Program-made: the position numbers and the translations under genes
The notes under the pieces: generated by a model
Databases searched by the model: none
Told to the model about the DNA's origin: nothing
Seen by the model: only the letters and a program-made list of their open reading frames with translations
Shown: one piece after another, positions 5,941-33,728 of the stretch
Position numbering within the stretch: position 1 is the stretch's first letter
Layout of the letters: each line of letters opens with the position of its first letter
DNA from: Bdellovibrionales bacterium
GTDB taxonomy: Bacteria; Bdellovibrionota_C; UBA2361; RFPC01
Assembly: GCA_020434495.1 (NCBI GenBank)
Contig: JAGRAT010000003.1
Location: 1-39,758, forward strand
Length of the DNA stretch: 39,758 bases
Direction of reading: 5' to 3'

Positions 5941-6969
5941 CTAGTCCTTGCTGCTTCCGAGGTTCTTTCGTTCTAAAGCGTTAGCGATGTCTCTGTCTGC
6001 ACGTTCGGTGTAGCGCATGGTAATTCGGACATCGCTGTGTCCAAGTGCCTGAGCAACGAGCCGAACATCTTGAGAAGAGTTTAGGAGATCCGTTGCGAAA
6101 GAGTGTCGCAAAAGGTGCGGATGAAGTTTCGTTTCGCCAGAAAGCTGATTGATGGCTCGCCAAATAGATTTCGATCCCATTAGGAAGGAATCCGGATTGT
6201 CAGGAACCACACGATAGGTGCTGATAAAAAGCGGAAGTTTTTTGTCCTGTCCGATCGTTAAATCAGGGAAAAAGCGCGAAAGTTCGCGGCGGCGTTCGTC
6301 CAGGTATTCTCTTAATCGTGGTCTCAGGGCTGAAGAAATGTAGACGTTTCGAAACTTCTTCCCCTTGGTCCGCACATTTTGAATCCACTCCAATCCTTCA
6401 TCGAGCTGACCATGCCGGAGGAGTCGGACTTCATCTGCGCGGAGGCCAGTTTCAATAAGAAAGACAAAAAGCATCTCGTTTCGGCGCCGTTGAAAGGAGT
6501 TTCGCTCGGACTTCCGGTCAGCGGCGTGTTGAAGGGCATCGTGGACCTGTTCAACTGTTAGCGATTTTGGACGGAGTGCTTGGAGCTTCGGGGGTTTTAC
6601 TTCCTTGGCCGGGTTAGTAAATGTTGGCACCCTTTCAGCAAGGGTCCTCCCCATATGTTTTAATGTGGCAAGCCGACGTGAAACTGTAGATGGCGCTTCT
6701 CCCTGCGATAAGCAGTGTTCTATGAAGTTTTGAACACTTGAGTGGTCCCAGTGAGTAACTCGCAAAGACTCGACATCTGGAATGGCGTGATAGGAAGTGA
6801 GGAACTTCAAGAAGTGTTCAATGTCAGTGCGTTTCGCCTTAGCGGTATGGATTGACCCAGAGGCGTAGTACTCGAGGTAGCTGCTGACTACCTTAAAGAG
6901 AGCGATCGAAGTAAAGGACTTTCCTTTCGAAAGAACCTCAAGTGATTCAACTTCTGTTTTGCTGCTCAT
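5941..6969 (-). CDS. Tyrosine site-specific recombinase (Xer-like)
   Basis: It performs DNA strand exchange through a 3'-phosphotyrosyl intermediate. The product has 342 residues. An N-terminal SAM-like core-binding domain spans about residues 15-130 (IHTAKAKRTDIEHFLKFL onward) and a catalytic domain runs from about 145 to the end. All catalytic residues are visible: Arg in ETGLRADEVRLL, the beta-hairpin Lys in RTKGKKFRNVYIS, HLLRH, LGHSDVRIT, and the nucleophile Tyr in TMRYTERAD. The size is close to XerC/XerD but somewhat longer. It could be an accessory Xer paralogue or the integrase of a small element; no other mobile genes are nearby. ATG 6969 was preferred over an upstream TTG at 7005. 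It lies downstream of the GroES-like gene on the same strand. Confidence 0.9.
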   Translation of the reverse strand: MSSKTEVESLEVLSKGKSFTSIALFKVVSSYLEYYASGSIHTAKAKRTDIEHFLKFLTSYHAIPDVESLRVTHWDHSSVQNFIEHCLSQGEAPSTVSRRLATLKHMGRTLAERVPTFTNPAKEVKPPKLQALRPKSLTVEQVHDALQHAADRKSERNSFQRRRNEMLFVFLIETGLRADEVRLLRHGQLDEGLEWIQNVRTKGKKFRNVYISSALRPRLREYLDERRRELSRFFPDLTIGQDKKLPLFISTYRVVPDNPDSFLMGSKSIWRAINQLSGETKLHPHLLRHSFATDLLNSSQDVRLVAQALGHSDVRITMRYTERADRDIANALERKNLGSSKD

Positions 6970-7032
6970 GGTATAGAGGATTTCTTGAGCCGGGCAGGAT
7001 GTCAAAGGATTTTGTTGTTCGCGAAGAGCGTT

Positions 7033-15855: not shown

Positions 15856-17124
15856 TTACCCCGGAGTCCCACCGACGTAACGGACCTGCAGTCGGCTAAA
15901 TGCATCGACTTTGCTCCATGGAAAGAACGCGAATCCTCCGGTGTTAAAGAGCTCTACCTCTATAGTACTTCCGCTTTCAAAGTACCACGTAATATCAGCA
16001 ATGTTGTTCGCAAGATTGTTCTCCGAAAGTTCTACTGATTGAATTGTAGTTGCCCCATTCTTGAGTACTCGCGCATAGCTGAGAGTTTTTACCTGCACAC
16101 TTGCCCAAAGGTGAACACGATAGAATCCTGGCTGGATAATGGTGATCTTTCCGTCTGAGCTAACCGTTGCATATTCTTGAAGTGTGTTAAAATCTTCTCC
16201 ATTTAAACAGTAGCGATTCCAATCAGCCTTCGTTCCAGGTGTTGTGCATCCTCCAGAGAACATATAGACAGAGCTGTTGCCACCGCCGCCACCATCACAA
16301 CCGCCGGTACATTCTCCCGGAGGACCTTGTGGCCCAGGAATTCCCTGTTCACCTTGATCTCCCTTCGGACCTTGCGGCCCCATCGGTCCCTCGGGGCCTC
16401 TTTCCCCATCTGCTCCGGGAACTCCTGGAATTCCCTGTGGTCCCATGGCGCCAGTGAGTCCAATTGGACCCTGTGCGCCGGTGTCACCCTTTGGCCCTTG
16501 AACTCCAGGAATTCCTTGCGGACCTTGCGCACCCTGAAGACCAGGTTTTCCTTGTGGGCCAGTTGGCCCCATCGGTCCTAGGGCACCTTGCGGTCCAGCC
16601 GGTCCCATCGGTCCGGGCGCTCCCTGAGGACCTTCGGGACCTTCAATAGCGAATTCTTGAAGTAAAGAAGGGAGGTCTGAAACTGCCTTTGCTAAGGATA
16701 AAGAGCCATCTCGAAAATCAGAACTCTTTGAGGTTGCTACTTGTATCCAAACTTTACCGCTGTAGAGGAGATTCACGGGGAGATCTACTAGTAACGTTCC
16801 GTCATTTCCAAATCTACCAGATCGGACGAGATCGGTACCCGGCAGGGCCGAGATCGAATTTCTCGACTGTGAAAATACTTCTGGGGTCGAAGATACTCCA
16901 ATGAGATAGTAGTCGCGGTTTCCCCCGCCGATTTTTACGATAAACGAACTACTGGCGCTTGAGTCAACAAGGTGGTCGGTAAGCTCTAAAGATACAGAAT
17001 CTCCAGCGGTATCTACTCGCCCGCCACCACGTTGAGCTTCAACGTTCGTATTTAGGAAAAGAGTTAGGATGAGTAAAAGACCACATCCATTCGCGAGCAG
17101 ATTGGACAAAAATCGCTCGCTCAT
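15856..17124 (-). CDS. Secreted collagen-like protein with C1q/TNF-like tail
   Basis: The product has 422 residues. It has a signal peptide ([16 protein letters not shown]), an N-terminal beta-rich domain at about residues 30-165, and then 37 uninterrupted Gly-X-Y triplets at about 170-282 (for example [20 protein letters not shown]). A cysteine/glycine hinge ([14 protein letters not shown]) comes next. The C-terminal domain of about 130 residues ([45 protein letters not shown]) resembles the C1q/TNF-like trimerisation heads of bacterial collagen-like surface proteins. It should form a trimeric triple helix outside the cell, possibly for adhesion or matrix. AGGGG 6 bases before ATG 17124 supports the start. 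Confidence 0.92.
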
Positions 17125-17404: not shown

Positions 17405-17590
17405 ATTGATACTCTTATCAAGAGAGGTGAAGGGAACGGCCCTATGACGCCTCGGCAACCTGTAGAAAGTTGAGTTCTGAGGAGAACTCTCACTTTGAAA
17501 GGGTTTTGCTCATGCCTATGTGAGTAAAGCAGTTTCAAAGGACAGCATTCGCAAGGTGCCAATTCCGACAGGAATGACGGAATCTTAACA
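17405..17590 (+). ncRNA. SAM-I-like (S-box) riboswitch
   Basis: The conserved S-box core is present in order: CTCTTATCAAGAGAGGTG (17412-17429), AAGGGAACGGCCC with the kink-turn ATGAC, CTCGGCAACC (17451-17460), and after a long P3 region CAAGGTGCCAATTCC. The P3 arm is unusually large (about 90 bases). It contains the hairpin GAGTTCT-GAGG-AGAACTC and an outer CTTTGAAA/TTTCAAAG stem. P4 is ATTCCG with CGGAAT (17570-17583). SAM-I riboswitches bind S-adenosylmethionine and usually turn off methionine or sulfur genes. One problem is that the expected 3' strand of P1 (GATAAGAG) is not found after P4, where the sequence is TCTTAACAGG. The aptamer may be a variant or decayed. The only plus-strand genes downstream are the flavoprotein and the CMD protein. 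Confidence 0.75.
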
Positions 17591-17906
17591 GGAAGTTTGC
17601 TCTGGTGGGTGAATTTCGCTTTGTTGAGACGCCTGAATTTCTGAGAGATGAGAGTGAAGCATTTCTATTTCAGAACGCTTCCTCGAGTACAATAAATAGC
17701 GGATCTTCCAGCAGCTTCGAAGCGAATTGCTCTCATTGAAGCGGTCTTGGAGATTTGTGATTGCAGTTGATTTGGTCGCGGCTTGGTCCGCGATGAGAAT
17801 TACCTCTGTCTCTCGACGATGCATGGAACGTCGTCTCGGAACTGTATCTTGAAAGGGCATCAATCAAACTTGTCTTTCCTCTTTTCGGAAAGCCTGGAGA
17901 ACAGAG
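17591..17906 (+). other. Long leader between riboswitch and flavoprotein gene
   Basis: About 316 bases without a convincing gene. A 15-codon open frame starts at 17648 (MRVKHFYFRTLPRVQ) but has no clear ribosome-binding site. Hairpins include TCGCGG/CCGCGA at about 17776-17793 and CTTTCC/GGAAAG at about 17874-17893. The latter ends just before the GGAG ribosome-binding site of the gene at 17907. No hairpin followed by a T run is seen, so if the riboswitch acts it may do so at translation or through rho. Confidence 0.5.
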
Positions 17907-19559
17907 ATGGATGCTGCAATTCAAGTTACGCCCATAGCCGAGCTGGGATCGTTTTCTGGGCGATTTCGGTCAGGGCTCGAGCCGTCCCAGCAAGACCTCG
18001 AACGACCACTTCGGGAAAAGCAAGCTAGTATCGCTATTGTCGGCGGAGGGTTTAGTGCGATCGCCACGCTGAACCAAATTGTCAAAAAGGTGGAAGAGCG
18101 CCGGGAACAGGGGGAGGAGCTTCCGTTAATCAAGATTGCCGTGTTTGCCAAAGACGGCATCGACCGAGGTATCGCTTACAGGCAGCCAGGGAAGTCCGAA
18201 GATGCTGGGGTGTTCATCCTCAACCAACCTGCTGACTTTATGTCGTGGGATCCTCAAGATAAACAAGTCTATACCAAGTGGCTTCACCGGAATAATAAAC
18301 GAGATGAGTTTGGCAAACAGCTTGATGGAGATAGCTTTACGAGTCGAGCTTTGTACGGGGAAGCCATCGAAGATCTCTATCGAAACAGCTTGCTTCGGGC
18401 AGAGGCTTTGGGAATAGAGGTGGTGACGGTGAAGGGAGCAGTCACGGACCTTATTGTAGAACCTAAGAACACTGGGGTGCGTCTCGAAATTGCTGAAGCT
18501 GAAGGTATGCAGCAATCGGCCTTTCGAGAACAGGCCGGATACACGGTACTTGCGCTCGGACACTCCCCGTACAATCCATTTCCCTACCTCAATGGGAGTG
18601 ACCGTTATATCTTAAGACCCTTCGAGCTTACGGAGTACCACCAGTTAAAGACTAAACATCCAGAGCTATTTCAAGCGGGAGAGAAAGATGCAAAGGTCGC
18701 TCTCGTTGGTGGAGCAAGCTCCTCTCTTGATGCAATTCGAGCTTTGGAACACCTTGGGTTTCAAGGACGGTATGTGATAGTAGCGCCATCACCGTCTATC
18801 GAGGTATCAGAGGGAGCTACGGAGGGTCAAACTGGTGACTATGGGCGCCCCTGGAGCTTTGATCCTGAAGTCTACTCACGAAAGTCATTCGCCGACTATC
18901 GACCTGATATCCTGACCGCCGAATCGTTCTCTCCAACGGCCTCCTTTCTAACCTTGGGGAAGAAGCTGGGTCAGGAATTAAAGGCAGCTCAAGAACGAGG
19001 GTTTGGGGAGGGGCACGTATACTTTGGACTTCCACTTGAAGAGATGAAGAGGAAAATCGAAGGACTCCCCGAGGCCGAAACGGAAGGGGCAAGGCAGTTC
19101 ATAAAGTACGTAACTCACATGCAGGGATGTGCTACAGCTCCCGAATCAGCATCCCTCTATCGTCAACTCGAGCTGCAGGGTCGTATTGATCGACTCGAGG
19201 GCAGAGTTACAACGAGTCCACAAAGTAGCCCTAACCTCGCGAAAGAGGATGGGCCTCTCCTGCTTGGTACGAGTATGGCGGATGGCCGTACCTTTGTTTT
19301 GGAAGTGGATGCTGCCGTCAATTGCTGCGCCTTCCCAAAAAGCCATCTCTCGCCAACGACAGCCCGTTTGGCTGATTCTGTGAGTACTGATCCCAATTCG
19401 CCGCTCGGTTTGCTTGGCCCACCTGCTAAGATTGGTAGAAGATTTGGAGCCGAGACCTTTGCCGTCGAAGCTGAAGAGCAAGCAGAACAAGCCCTTCGGC
19501 TTTCGTTTAAGAATGCTCGACTTGTGAAAGAGGGATCAGAATCCGTTAACGCAAATTGA
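17907..19559 (+). CDS. FAD/NAD(P)-binding protein (PF13454-like) downstream of SAM riboswitch
   Basis: The product has 550 residues. A dinucleotide-binding Rossmann motif, ASIAIVGGGFSAIATLNQI, lies at about residues 40-58. It is followed by family-typical DRGIAYRQPG, VFILNQPADFMSWDP and the second FAD-contact strand VLALGHSPYNPFPYL at about 213. A second Rossmann turn, VALVGGASSSLDAIRAL, is near 264. This pattern fits the FAD_NAD_binding (PF13454) group, whose members are flavoproteins with mostly unknown substrates; relatives include amine or ornithine N-monooxygenase-like enzymes. It has no signal peptide. GGAG lies 7 bases before ATG 17907. It is the first gene after the SAM-I-like riboswitch and is followed 18 bases later by an AhpD-type protein, so a redox role connected to sulfur or methyl metabolism is inferred. 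Confidence 0.85.
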   Translation: MDAAIQVTPIAELGSFSGRFRSGLEPSQQDLERPLREKQASIAIVGGGFSAIATLNQIVKKVEERREQGEELPLIKIAVFAKDGIDRGIAYRQPGKSEDAGVFILNQPADFMSWDPQDKQVYTKWLHRNNKRDEFGKQLDGDSFTSRALYGEAIEDLYRNSLLRAEALGIEVVTVKGAVTDLIVEPKNTGVRLEIAEAEGMQQSAFREQAGYTVLALGHSPYNPFPYLNGSDRYILRPFELTEYHQLKTKHPELFQAGEKDAKVALVGGASSSLDAIRALEHLGFQGRYVIVAPSPSIEVSEGATEGQTGDYGRPWSFDPEVYSRKSFADYRPDILTAESFSPTASFLTLGKKLGQELKAAQERGFGEGHVYFGLPLEEMKRKIEGLPEAETEGARQFIKYVTHMQGCATAPESASLYRQLELQGRIDRLEGRVTTSPQSSPNLAKEDGPLLLGTSMADGRTFVLEVDAAVNCCAFPKSHLSPTTARLADSVSTDPNSPLGLLGPPAKIGRRFGAETFAVEAEEQAEQALRLSFKNARLVKEGSESVNAN

Positions 19560-19577
19560 TTTTTTGAGGAGTAAGAA

Positions 19578-19922
19578 ATGGGAAAACGACTAGATGACTT
19601 TGATTCGTTTCGAACGGCGATGAATGAGAAAATTTTAGAAGCGGGAAATCTTCAGGTGAAGCGCTTTTTCAATTTAGACTCACAGGCCTATGCAGAAGGA
19701 GCGCTTCCGGTAAAAACGAAGGAGCTTCTTGGGCTCGTGGCATCCGCGGTGCTTCGCTGCGATGATTGCATTACCTATCATATCGTCCAGTGTCATGAGC
19801 ACGGTGTCACTAAGGAGGAGTTCTTCGAGGTATTCAATGTTGCTTTGATTGTGGGGGGATCAATAACCATTCCGCACATACGGAGAGCTACCGAGGTCTT
19901 GGAAGAGCTGTTCGACAAGTAG
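19578..19922 (+). CDS. Carboxymuconolactone decarboxylase (AhpD-type) family protein
   Basis: This all-helical protein has 114 residues. The AhpD-type redox signature is complete: Glu49, then Cys61-x-x-Cys64 and His68 in LRCDDCITYHI. In AhpD this proton-relay cysteine pair gives disulfide reductase or peroxidase activity; classical gamma-carboxymuconolactone decarboxylases lack it. The redox type is therefore favoured. A GAGGAG-like ribosome-binding site (TTTGAGGAGTAAG) precedes ATG 19578, and the 18-base gap makes it co-transcribed with the flavoprotein, perhaps as its electron partner. It converges with the M48 protease gene. Confidence 0.93.
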   Translation: MGKRLDDFDSFRTAMNEKILEAGNLQVKRFFNLDSQAYAEGALPVKTKELLGLVASAVLRCDDCITYHIVQCHEHGVTKEEFFEVFNVALIVGGSITIPHIRRATEVLEELFDK

Positions 19923-27884: not shown

Positions 27885-30800
27885 CTATTTTCTGCAGCGT
27901 CTGCCGCTACATTTGCTCTTATTTTTCATTTTGAACACAGAAGACTTGTTCCCGAAAACATCCAAAAGGACAAATTTCATCTTCCTTTTGAGGTCAGAGA
28001 GTAAGACCTGCCCAAGGGCGTCGGTGGTCACCTCAAAGAGGCAAGGGAGTTTTAATTGACCATTTCTCTTCACCTTGCAAACCTTCAGCTTTGCATCGGC
28101 GACCGGGTTCCCCTCATCGTCGCGATAGGTGGCGGTAATACTCCACTTTCGCCCCTCAATAACTGGCTGCTCGGGCTCGAAAGCTACCTGTTCTCCAGCT
28201 TTCACTTCTCCTGATGGAGGGGCTGATTGGAAATCCGAGAGCAAGGATTCCCAGAGCTCAAGAGAGGCTGAAGAGTCGTTCGGGTTATAAATGAATTCGC
28301 CGAGTTGGAGCTCCTCTTCTTCCTGATCTAAGTAGAGTCTTCTCACGGCGATTGTTGACTCCCTTCTCTTTGGCTGAATGAGGGCAATTCCATTCTCGCC
28401 AGCCAAATGATCCGTGAAATCTAGTTCTAAACGGGAGTTCGCTAAAAGTTGATAGTATTCGTCGGATAGAACGGCGCCTTCCACACTAAAGAGTGAAACT
28501 CTAACGTCTGTAGAAAGTGGTTGAGTATTGAGGAGTGTAATCTCAGCGCTTACCTCCTCATCTGTTCCAAGGAGGAATGATTCTCGGTCATGGCCTGAGC
28601 CCCGCACTCCATGAATCGCGTAGGAATAGTAAATCTTCGAATCACTGCTTCCAACGTGCTCGACATAGGTATGAAGCAGGGCGTTCTTTGAGGCAGGGGT
28701 AACCCGGAAGCTTCCGAGCTCTGTTGCCTCATCTAGGGAAGAGAGATCTACTGGAGTAGAGAGAGAATTTGGATAGACCGTCTCCTCTACTGTTGTAACA
28801 AGAGTTCCATCAGCGTTGAAAATCTCTATGGTAATATCCTCAGCGAGAGTTCCCGAGTTCAGGATTACCAGAGTAGCCGAACAGAGCTCTTGATCGCATA
28901 GAACCTCATCGCCTACTTGTCTTCCCTCACTGTACGGTGCAAAGACGGGGTAACCAGAGCCGTTTGCAAATGAAGTAAGAGAGAGTACCCGCCTTGCTGC
29001 GAGGCTCGAGTCTCCATTTACTTCTAGTGCGCCGCTTACTAAGCCATTAAAGGTGAGAACAGCATAACCACTGCGTTCATCAGCAAGTGATTCTGCCGCC
29101 AGAAGCTCGATCTTACGCACCTCTCCAGCTGCGAGTGTGAACTGTGAGGAAGCGAGGCTTTCGCCATTTGTATTAAAGAGGGTAACAGCTCCCGAGGAGA
29201 GCGAATCGTTCTTCAGATTTGTGACAATCGCTGATACTGCTGTATTCGAAAATTGAGTAAAGATAGTTTGTGCTGGGCTCGTGAGGGGTATGAGAACGTG
29301 ACCTGCATCGTACACGTTCGTTCCAGCGAGTCGTTCCTGAGCATCAGAAACTCCGTCTCTGTCCGAGTCGATAACCGGGAGTCCAGATTCCCTATCTTGA
29401 ACATCAGTTACTACTACAGTCCATCCAACAGTATCTTTCAAGTCACTGTCAGTGGTTTCAAACTGTACGCAGGTATCAACCGAAGTGCGAACCGTGACCT
29501 GAGTAGTTGCCGTGTGAGTGCTGCTCAGTTCTACAGATGGAGCCTCAGCTGGGAGTGGAGGGGACGGATGAACGAGTGCATCGAGATCATGAAAGTAGCT
29601 TCCGGGGAGCACCGCCAAAGGATAACCTCCATCTGAGTGGAGTGCGAGTATCACCTCATTCTCTTCTGGGGCATCGAAGACATAAACGGCTTGGTTCAAG
29701 ACACTAGAGTAAATGGCCTGTACACCGTCTCCAACCGGACACCTATCGGAACCGGCGCTGCAATTCGGATGATAGGTAAAACCGTACTCGTTATCGAGAT
29801 TGACGACGGTCTGTGCGCAAGCCTCAGCAGTAACTGAGTGCTGAAGAGCGTCACCATCTGGATCAAAGACCGTGATGGTTTGAACTAACGGGGCCTCAGG
29901 TAGGGAAATCCCTTGGGATGGGATGGTTGCTACCGGAGCCCTATTGGTATTTGTAAAGAAGAGGTGAGCGATAAAATTATCGTTTGGAACCCCATCTGAG
30001 AACACGATACTTACGAGAGAGAGCCTCGATCCATTGGTTTGTAAAGTTACCGTATGGTTTCCGCTTCCATTGTCTTGATGGATTGCTGTTGGAGTTCCGA
30101 CCGAAGGTTGCATACCTAGAAATTCGCTTCTTGCGTGGTCAATGTTGATACAACTTGAAGCTGGTAGGGTCGCGATGATATTGCCGATATCTGTCTTTAA
30201 GTGGCAGGCAGGAGACTCGCCACCTCCGCTTGGAACAAGATAGTACCACCGGTTCTCGGCCTCTGAGAAGAATGCGAACCCTGGCCCATTGTATCCAGAA
30301 TCTCTTTCTACTAGCCGCTTTGTTGATTTGATCTCGGTGACAAGAGCTGAGACGTTCTGCACCGACAAGATAGAGCCTTGAACCGTTTGTCCATCGATAT
30401 CATGAACTGTCAGTGGAACTGACAAGGTGTTCTGGGCACCGTTTAGCGAATGAGTCGATGTAAAGCTCACAGTGGGGGCGTGGTTACTGACCTGTACATC
30501 AAAGATGCGATCTACGTAGTAGTTCCCACGCTTCGATGACCGTAATCGGAGTCGATATGTCGTGTCAGTAACTGTTGACGGTGTTGTTACGACAACTGCG
30601 GAGGCCTGTAAGAACGCAATTCCCGGACCGGGAGGGGCGAGATTTGGATTGACGAGCGCCCATGGATCGTCAAAGAAGTATCCTGGAATAACTCCAATGA
30701 GAGAGAGGCTCGGGTACGAATACACCTGTGTGAAAGATTTGCCAGAGCTGTCGGTAAATCTCCTGAGTTGAAGATACCCAGATCCAAGTACATATTTATT

Positions 30801-33461
30801 GCCACTTCCCCCGAAGTCATCGCTCGGCTGGTCGTAATAGTAGAGGCCAAATTGATTTGCAATCTCGTTTGCTCTTTGGAGGGGGCTTTGTAGGAATGAC
30901 ACTATAGTAGTCGCCATACCTTCACCATTATTTAGCTGGTATGCTAAATTGAGCGTTTCGCCGGGAAATCCACTCTGGTCCGGAATGAATCCAAGGGTCG
31001 GTTGAGAGCTGGTAATGTTGCTCACAAAGCTTGCAGAGGCACTGCCGCCTCGCGACCAACAGGTCAACTCAGTATTGAAACTCCCGACAGTAGCTTCCGA
31101 CAAATCAAAGCTTACCTGTCCTCCTACAACACTTGCTACGATCGATGAAGCATCAAGCGGTTGTAATGGTGAGGTAAAGAGTGAAGGATTCGCGAAGAGA
31201 TTCGGGAACACTCCGAGTACTGAAACGCCGCCATTAAAATATCTTCGAACTGTGTTCGAGCTATCTACAGTCAAATATTCCCCGCTATTCCGGGTAAAGA
31301 AGAGCTTGACGGGGCTGTTGTTGGTATCTGCAAAGTGACAACCTTCGGTCACGCAGTACGGCTCGTATTGATTTACTGTATTGAGAAATGGAGGTTGTCC
31401 GGACAGGGAGGTGAGCGCTACCGAGCATTCAACATCGTCCCCATCTGGATCTACTGCAGTAAAGTCTGCTGTGACTGTTCCATCTGCTAGGTTATAGTTC
31501 TGTTCTGACGGTGGAGTGATAGTCGGCGGGTTTGAAGTGACAGTCACGTTGAATGAATCTGTAGCCGTCGCTTCTTCTGCATCAGCGATCGTCACTTCAA
31601 TAGCAAATTCCCCGTAGTAGTCATCCTCCCAGGTTACAACGATAGTCCCAGCATTTGAGTTCGGGTCGAGCGTACAGTCTGCAGTTGAGCCGTCGGGTGC
31701 CGGTGGTCCAGGCGGGCTGGTGAGAATTGTTGGGTCACTAAAAGCTCCAGGAAATGCTCCAATAGAGGTATTCTGCTCGCCATCAACTCGAGTGACCTCG
31801 TCATGTTCATTAACACTAAAAATTTGCCCATCAATCCCGTATAGGGTTTTGGTACCTTGACCATATACGTCTTGTTGACAGTTCTCGGATACACAGAACG
31901 GCTGAAATGTTTGGTTGAAGTTGTACGCAGAGCTACTAACAGCTCCGACCACTCGTGCGGTGCAGCTTGAAACCCGACCAATACTCTCTCCGTTTCCATC
32001 AGGATCGTATGCCCCGAACTGAATTGAGGCAGAACTTTGAACTGCTCCGTCATATGCTTGATCCGAAATCGGCGCTACAAATACGGGGAACTCATTGGGA
32101 TCGGCTGCGTTCAAGACACGCTCGGCATCTGCAATTCCCTTCACAAGGATGGATTGGTCAAAACTTGGAATCGGTTTAGTGTTTGCGAGAATGAGATCCT
32201 TCATCTGTCTCGGTGTTAGTGATGGATCCACAGAAGCAAGAAGGGCTGCAATACCAGAGACATGAGGAGTGGCCATTGAGGTTCCACTCCAGCTCGCGTA
32301 GCCACCATTTGGAAGAGTACTGTAGATTGCAGAGCCTGGTGCTGTGAGGTCTACAGTGGTTCTCCCCCAGCAAGAGAAGCTCGATCTGGCACCGCTGGAT
32401 GTATGGGAAGCAACCGCAATAAGTGAGTCTTGGGTAGGTTTGTAAGTCGACGGATAGTGAGGAGACGAATCGTTATCACTATTCGAGTTCCCTGCAGCGG
32501 CAATGAAGATTATTCCAGCAGCTTCAGCAGCGTTAATTGCTGTTAGCATTGCTGAACTGCTTCCACCACCACCCCAAGAGTTGCTTGATACCCGAATATT
32601 GACGCCTCGATTCTTCATCTCGGTCATGTACTTGACCAGGTCAATGGCGTCTTGGGTAGAGCCGCTTCCAGTCGAGCTCAAGAACTTCAGCGCCATAATT
32701 TTTACGTTAGGAGCAACTCCGACAACTCCTACCCCATTGTTGTCTATCCCCGCGATAGTTCCAGAGCAGTGAGTTCCGTGTCCGTGATCGTCCCAGGGAT
32801 TCCCCGCGTTCGGGTTCCCAGCGGAGTAGGGCGGATACGGCTGTACGTAAGTGATACCGTTCAATCCCCAGTAATCATCGATATAGCCGTTTCCATCATC
32901 ATCAATTCCGTTGTTTGGAATTTCTCCAGTGTTGTGCCACATGTTCGCTTGGAGATCGGGATGGTTGTAGTCAACGCCGGTATCAATCACCGCTACAACT
33001 ACTTCTTCGCTTCCCCGCGACACATCCCAAGCTTGGTATGCTTCTGTCCCATATGTGCCGTGGATGCCCCATAGCTGCCCCCAACCGGGATCGTTTGTAG
33101 CTGGCGCGGAGATCGAGTAGAGAAAGTTGGGCTCAGCAAAATTGAGAATGTTGGTGTCCAAGAGGTCGGCGAGAGCTTTAAAGTTCGGGTCTGAGCAATC
33201 GACTTTTGCTCCCTCTGAAATACCGAGCTCAGAAAGATACTCCAATCCCCCAATCTGTTGCAGAGCTAGGCGAATCTCTTCGCGACTGTAGTCCGGAAAG
33301 AGTACTTGAATTTGGTTGAGCGCAGCTTCGTTGAGCTGTAGTAAACATTCGTTTTCAACATACTCGACTGTTTGAGATGTGGGTGCGGTTTGGGAGTACG
33401 CCGAAGCGCTGATGCCGAGCACCCCAACAATGGCCAACATGAGAGGAAGAATAAACCGCAT
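27885..33461 (-). CDS. Giant secreted subtilisin-family (S8) protease with tandem beta repeats
   Basis: The product has 1858 residues. A signal peptide (RFILPLMLAIVGVLGISASA) and a propeptide-like segment (VEYVENECLLQLNEAALNQI) precede the S8 domain at about 120-450. The catalytic triad is intact: Asp in VVAVIDTGVDYNHPDL (about 162), His in DDHGHGTHCSGT (about 229) and Ser in SGTSMATPHVSGIAALL (about 395). From about 460 to 1350 come five units of about 180 residues. Each has a cadherin-like strand set ending in DPDGD or a similar segment, plus a module ending near IGAFPGAFSDP or a similar motif. A calcium loop, DSDRDGVSDAQERLAGTN, follows near 1367. A beta-rich C-terminal region and a strongly basic Lys/Arg/Cys tail (SKCSGRRCRK) complete the protein. 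It is probably exported and calcium-stabilised. Confidence 0.93.
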   Translation of the reverse strand: MRFILPLMLAIVGVLGISASAYSQTAPTSQTVEYVENECLLQLNEAALNQIQVLFPDYSREEIRLALQQIGGLEYLSELGISEGAKVDCSDPNFKALADLLDTNILNFAEPNFLYSISAPATNDPGWGQLWGIHGTYGTEAYQAWDVSRGSEEVVVAVIDTGVDYNHPDLQANMWHNTGEIPNNGIDDDGNGYIDDYWGLNGITYVQPYPPYSAGNPNAGNPWDDHGHGTHCSGTIAGIDNNGVGVVGVAPNVKIMALKFLSSTGSGSTQDAIDLVKYMTEMKNRGVNIRVSSNSWGGGGSSSAMLTAINAAEAAGIIFIAAAGNSNSDNDSSPHYPSTYKPTQDSLIAVASHTSSGARSSFSCWGRTTVDLTAPGSAIYSTLPNGGYASWSGTSMATPHVSGIAALLASVDPSLTPRQMKDLILANTKPIPSFDQSILVKGIADAERVLNAADPNEFPVFVAPISDQAYDGAVQSSASIQFGAYDPDGNGESIGRVSSCTARVVGAVSSSAYNFNQTFQPFCVSENCQQDVYGQGTKTLYGIDGQIFSVNEHDEVTRVDGEQNTSIGAFPGAFSDPTILTSPPGPPAPDGSTADCTLDPNSNAGTIVVTWEDDYYGEFAIEVTIADAEEATATDSFNVTVTSNPPTITPPSEQNYNLADGTVTADFTAVDPDGDDVECSVALTSLSGQPPFLNTVNQYEPYCVTEGCHFADTNNSPVKLFFTRNSGEYLTVDSSNTVRRYFNGGVSVLGVFPNLFANPSLFTSPLQPLDASSIVASVVGGQVSFDLSEATVGSFNTELTCWSRGGSASASFVSNITSSQPTLGFIPDQSGFPGETLNLAYQLNNGEGMATTIVSFLQSPLQRANEIANQFGLYYYDQPSDDFGGSGNKYVLGSGYLQLRRFTDSSGKSFTQVYSYPSLSLIGVIPGYFFDDPWALVNPNLAPPGPGIAFLQASAVVVTTPSTVTDTTYRLRLRSSKRGNYYVDRIFDVQVSNHAPTVSFTSTHSLNGAQNTLSVPLTVHDIDGQTVQGSILSVQNVSALVTEIKSTKRLVERDSGYNGPGFAFFSEAENRWYYLVPSGGGESPACHLKTDIGNIIATLPASSCINIDHARSEFLGMQPSVGTPTAIHQDNGSGNHTVTLQTNGSRLSLVSIVFSDGVPNDNFIAHLFFTNTNRAPVATIPSQGISLPEAPLVQTITVFDPDGDALQHSVTAEACAQTVVNLDNEYGFTYHPNCSAGSDRCPVGDGVQAIYSSVLNQAVYVFDAPEENEVILALHSDGGYPLAVLPGSYFHDLDALVHPSPPLPAEAPSVELSSTHTATTQVTVRTSVDTCVQFETTDSDLKDTVGWTVVVTDVQDRESGLPVIDSDRDGVSDAQERLAGTNVYDAGHVLIPLTSPAQTIFTQFSNTAVSAIVTNLKNDSLSSGAVTLFNTNGESLASSQFTLAAGEVRKIELLAAESLADERSGYAVLTFNGLVSGALEVNGDSSLAARRVLSLTSFANGSGYPVFAPYSEGRQVGDEVLCDQELCSATLVILNSGTLAEDITIEIFNADGTLVTTVEETVYPNSLSTPVDLSSLDEATELGSFRVTPASKNALLHTYVEHVGSSDSKIYYSYAIHGVRGSGHDRESFLLGTDEEVSAEITLLNTQPLSTDVRVSLFSVEGAVLSDEYYQLLANSRLELDFTDHLAGENGIALIQPKRRESTIAVRRLYLDQEEEELQLGEFIYNPNDSSASLELWESLLSDFQSAPPSGEVKAGEQVAFEPEQPVIEGRKWSITATYRDDEGNPVADAKLKVCKVKRNGQLKLPCLFEVTTDALGQVLLSDLKRKMKFVLLDVFGNKSSVFKMKNKSKCSGRRCRK

Positions 33462-33728
33462 CACTACTTTCTATAACCCTGGGCGCGGAACACACCTACC
33501 GCGTCGATCCCACACGGAAGTATCGAGCAAAGGAGGGATATCTTGATAACTCCCCGTCAAAAATAACTCTGAGGGGGAAAACGAGAACTTTTCTGAGGAA
33601 TACGTGTGTGATCCTTGTAGGAGCTTCTTGGAGGTTTTCCTCTCTTCGCAGAGAAATTGTGCCGGGTATTAAGAATATCTTGGAGAGTGCCGATATCGTA
33701 CAGATATCGAATTGATTGGTGGAACAGG

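Follow-up and report, generated by a model that had tools for sequence, protein, structure and literature searches.

What might a SAM-I riboswitch control when the genes behind it have no recognised role in methionine, cysteine or SAM metabolism? The question is raised by a locus of a Bdellovibrionales bacterium (assembly GCA_020434495.1, contig JAGRAT010000003.1), analysed here within a stretch of 39,758 nucleotides that we refer to as the window and that sits in a draft genome of 745 contigs. With a probability of roughly 0.6, we favor the reading that the riboswitch controls a two-gene operon in which a flavoprotein acts on a sulfur substrate with an AhpD-like protein as its partner. The features that define the locus are as follows:

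15856–17124, minus strand: divergent collagen-like gene (PF01391), the 5′ intergenic boundary
17412–17654, plus strand: SAM-I riboswitch aptamer at its full extent, 243 nt (R1 and RF00162 matches, stable fold)
17907–19559, plus strand: PF13454 FAD/NAD(P)-binding flavoprotein, 550 aa (PF13454, 68.4 bits against a cut-off of 21.8)
19578–19922, plus strand: AhpD-like carboxymuconolactone-decarboxylase-fold (CMD) protein, 114 aa, with C61-x2-C64-x3-H68 (PF02627, 62.2 bits; TIGR00778)

Both downstream genes had been named in a sequence-only reading of this DNA, and the profile matches agree with those assignments. The collagen-like protein also shows a weak match to the BclA C-terminus, below the cut-off.

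The same reading had called a SAM-I-like element from its S-box core strings, which are indeed found in the sequence, and had proposed a search with the Rfam model. RF00162 matches the plus strand at 17412–17580 with 49.0 bits (E 2.1e-8), above the gathering score of 44.4. In this alignment, P1 is mismatched and most of P4 is absent, giving the element the appearance of a degraded copy; the true 3′ end of the aptamer is at 17654, whereas the Rfam alignment stops early, at 17580. A covariance model derived from ten same-order aptamers with the window left out (R1, 133 positions in length) matches 17412–17654 over positions 1–133 of 133 with zero non-standard pairs (87.5 bits, E 5.1e-23), and this is its sole match in the window. 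When folded without constraints in RNAfold, the same 243 nt reach −95.5 kcal/mol as a canonical four-way junction with an 8-bp P1, a kinked P2, P3 and P4, and none of 200 shuffled sequences is as stable (z −5.43). The nucleotides most conserved in Rfam within P1, J1/2, P3 and J3/4 are present in both the RF00162 and the R1 alignments. A chance or degenerate look-alike would explain why the RF00162 score barely exceeds its cut-off, but we consider it very improbable, as it is contradicted both by the R1 score, from a model that had not seen the window, and by the stability of the fold. The low Rfam score and the clipped 3′ end are instead due to the long P3 and P4 arms, and the Rfam model can thus clip SAM-I aptamers with such arms and score them near the cut-off. 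Judged by its alignments and predicted fold, the element belongs to the known SAM-I class as an authentic member with unusual target genes, and the evidence for this identity is stronger than the sequence-only reading could provide. Its parts are:

17412–17419, plus strand: P1 5′ strand, CUCUUAUC, all 8 nt of which pair with 17647–17654
17424–17453, plus strand: P2 with kink turn (sequence and folding)
17454–17560, plus strand: P3, in which a long branched extension adds to the conserved CGGCAACC/GGUGCC core (RF00162, fold and R1)
17569–17643, plus strand: P4, a long hairpin closed by CAGGAAU/AUUUCUG (fold and R1)
17647–17654, plus strand: P1 3′ strand, GAUGAGAG (R1 match; absent from the Rfam alignment)

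The octamer GAUGAGAG also closes P1 in most same-order aptamers, where it comes after CUGGAA; in the window it is preceded by the end of P4. With the SAM-I (S-box) class, the element shares the conserved core, the four-way junction, the P2 kink turn and a location upstream of an operon, here a putative one. It differs in its long P3 and P4, in two kink-turn positions and in its target genes. The kink turn is formed by G3n, A2n and A1n at 17429–17431 and G1b, A2b and C3b at 17446–17448, such that the G•A pair 1b•1n is kept while 2b•2n is A•A in place of A•G; position 2n (17430) is A, and position 3b (17448) is C. In a SAM-I riboswitch that has been tested, the corresponding G2nA variant binds SAM with a Kd of 0.31 µM, near that of the natural RNA (PMC3651934). 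By inspection, the pseudoknot between the P2 loop and J3/4 could form GG/CC pairs; its third position is C rather than U, as is also the case in most same-order aptamers. Given the conserved core and the tolerance of the G2nA change, SAM binding by the window aptamer is likely.

The genome contains one other SAM-I element. Downstream of it lie a methyltransferase-like gene and a gene for a homocysteine S-methyltransferase, and SAM-I control of methionine genes therefore probably operates in this organism. The gene between this second element and the homocysteine S-methyltransferase gene (locus L014, 662–1816, plus strand) encodes a 384-aa protein with sub-threshold methyltransferase matches only. 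The two aptamers of the genome have in common the C at 3b and a GAGAGAU junction, which makes contamination less likely as the source of the window aptamer.

We next consider how unusual the arrangement is. Of 383 genomes, 59 have RF00162 matches, at roughly 87 SAM-I sites, and in the DNA around most of these sites, a PF13454 gene lies downstream of SAM-I in the window only, in keeping with the unusual target that the sequence-only reading had claimed; no CMD gene was detected by phmmer near the other sites covered. The flank at some of the sites was about 1.5 kb, such that more distant operon genes would be missed. A recurrent PF13454–CMD pair with a SAM riboswitch, for which the earlier reading had suggested a search, did not emerge: the 80 close CMD relatives examined all lack a PF13454 neighbor and, by pattern, a SAM-I core. 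With no PF13454 neighbor among these relatives, the proposed two-gene pathway is tied to a single genome. Rather than a known gene of methionine, cysteine or SAM synthesis or transport, the targets here are a PF13454 and a CMD protein. Searches of the available literature found nothing relevant that links SAM riboswitches with CMD proteins, or that connects cysteine dioxygenase either with riboswitches or with both FAD/NAD and Rrf2 proteins. For the M48 gene downstream, no close relative was found within the family.

A unique arrangement could also mean that the aptamer is intact but non-operonic, a leader left over from a gene exchange, with the promoter of gene 1 in the spacer. The spacer is long, with 252 nt from the end of the aptamer to the ATG at 17907, compared to up to 200 nt in the relatives measured, and it is without a recognizable switch output. 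A simple scan between 17655 and 17907 finds no terminator, and accessibility of the ribosome-binding site is the same whether or not P1 is forced. The full-leader minimum free energy (MFE) structure offers one candidate:

17804–17815, plus strand: candidate anti-P1 strand, CUCUGUCUCUC, which can pair with 17643–17655 in the full-leader MFE structure

In that structure, this pairing replaces P1, and forcing P1 in the full leader costs 4.8 kcal/mol, a cost that SAM binding could pay. We nevertheless set the pairing aside as a switch because 7% of shuffles do as well, which is not above chance. The unique arrangement, the long spacer, the lack of a recognizable output and the chance-level anti-P1 pairing speak for a leftover leader. 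Against it, the core and P1 are fully kept (87.5 bits), both of which decay would erode; a search of the spacer for a sigma-70-like promoter found none, nor did one upstream; and the open reading frame at 17907 is the first gene on the plus strand after the aptamer, with no other in between. On this evidence, we regard a leftover leader as rather improbable and retain the reading of a riboswitch-controlled operon.

To our knowledge, few members of the PF13454 family have been characterized. The window flavoprotein keeps the glycine-rich FAD motif (GGGFSA). At the NAD(P) motif, it has GGASSS in place of GxGxxA, and the second dinucleotide motif of class B flavin monooxygenases, GxGxxG/A for NADPH, is therefore not seen there. 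In an alignment of relatives from which 8cp2 was itself left out, QGCAT stands in the window protein where most relatives have HRHR. Identity to the aligned PF13454 relatives is 18–23%. A single-query search of 84,980 species genomes with the flavoprotein found no relative, and the search of the 383 genomes returned remote relatives only. One relative, at 23% identity, lies on a viral contig. A profile of the flavoprotein and its relatives matches FMO-type (flavin-containing) monooxygenases, the best match being the aspartate N-hydroxylase of Streptomyces sp. V2 (8cp2), for which the active-site arginines have been named as Arg266, Arg409, Arg412 and Arg416 (PMC10404684). The window protein has the FAD-binding GGGFS motif and the family profile in common with this group of PF13454 flavoproteins and the related hydroxylase. 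A single-sequence AlphaFold model of the flavoprotein was discarded (pLDDT 38).

The second gene begins 18 bp after the first and is preceded by a Shine–Dalgarno-like GAGGAG. Its product is 61% identical to a solved protein of Thermotoga maritima (1vke/1p8c), with which it shares the E-x11-C-x2-C-x3-H motif (E49, C61, C64 and H68 in the window protein), and it scores 35.1 bits with the AhpD domain model TIGR00778, above the cut-off of 27.8. Its close homologues elsewhere adjoin neither a PF13454 gene nor a SAM riboswitch; relatives of this protein are widespread in unrelated gene contexts without a sulfur setting. With an AhpD-type motif, a domain score above cut-off and relatives that lack a sulfur context, the riboswitch could be functional but serve a redox or protective target, with methionine or SAM shortage acting as a stress signal, the AhpD-like protein providing peroxide defense, and the flavoprotein being its reductase or a separate oxidase. 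We think this unlikely, as SAM-I regulons elsewhere consist of methionine and cysteine genes (PMC3766115), and the PF13454 relatives of the flavoprotein are FMO-like, with several found in sulfur settings.

In five same-order genomes (G007, G019, G021, G022 and G028), a PF13454 gene follows a cysteine dioxygenase gene, which was assigned by Pfam in three genomes and by tblastn extension in the other two. An Rrf2-type regulator gene lies near these pairs (loci L131, L132, L133, L153 and L154), assigned by Pfam in one genome and from sequence similarity in the other four. As in our reading of the window, these pairs place a PF13454 flavoprotein in a sulfur setting, but the partner is cysteine dioxygenase, and the regulator gene nearby takes the place of a riboswitch. 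The cysteine dioxygenase gene in the genome of the window is on another contig. Two plasmid relatives likewise occur in organosulfur settings: in Nostoc, PF13454 is fused to a metallo-beta-lactamase domain and is last in an ssu alkanesulfonate operon (locus L122, 3965–6250, plus strand), while the Rhizobium relative has genes for a luciferase-like monooxygenase and an acyl-CoA-dehydrogenase-like protein in its vicinity. Transfer of this context to the window is weak because identity is 18–23% and other PF13454 relatives adjoin ATP-grasp genes. The gene context therefore supports a sulfur role for the window flavoprotein without proving it. Of the sulfur-linked redox pathway suggested by the sequence-only reading, the part concerning the flavoprotein is backed by the context of its family, while the recurrence of the gene pair is not, and the specific reaction is a conjecture. 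A sulfur-linked redox step is a reasonable, partly supported assignment.

Under our preferred reading, the SAM-I riboswitch would lie in the 5′ leader of the two genes, which would be transcribed together. When SAM is plentiful, its binding would close P1 and expression would fall. When methionine or SAM runs short, the cell would make two proteins: an oxidase or monooxygenase of the flavin-dependent FMO type, and an AhpD-like thiol protein with a CxxC motif. The flavoprotein would most likely oxidize or open a sulfur-containing substrate such that its sulfur could be reused, and the AhpD-like protein may cooperate by handling peroxide or disulfide by-products or by supplying thiol reducing power. 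A more specific version is tentative, and we would not presume it: that SAM-I directly controls an uncharacterized flavoenzyme route, with a changed active site (QGCAT, GGASSS) and an AhpD-like thiol partner, that frees or recycles organic sulfur at methionine or SAM scarcity. Because a riboswitch names the metabolite to which its genes answer, the locus offers a testable way into the function of two proteins of unknown substrate. Confirmation would bring a flavin/thiol redox step into the SAM-I regulon and help to direct work on the PF13454 family.

Several observations concern other parts of the window. A tRNA-Asp gene occupies 224–300, and its first ~48 bases are repeated at 15–62, after which the sequences diverge; this truncated tRNA copy scores 33 bits with Rfam and is not called by ARAGORN. 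A phage-type integrase gene (5941–7005, minus strand) lies about 6 kb from the repeat, and together the two may mark an integrated element. Finally, the gene at 27885–33464 on the minus strand encodes an 1859-aa protein whose N-terminal subtilase domain is its one Pfam match.
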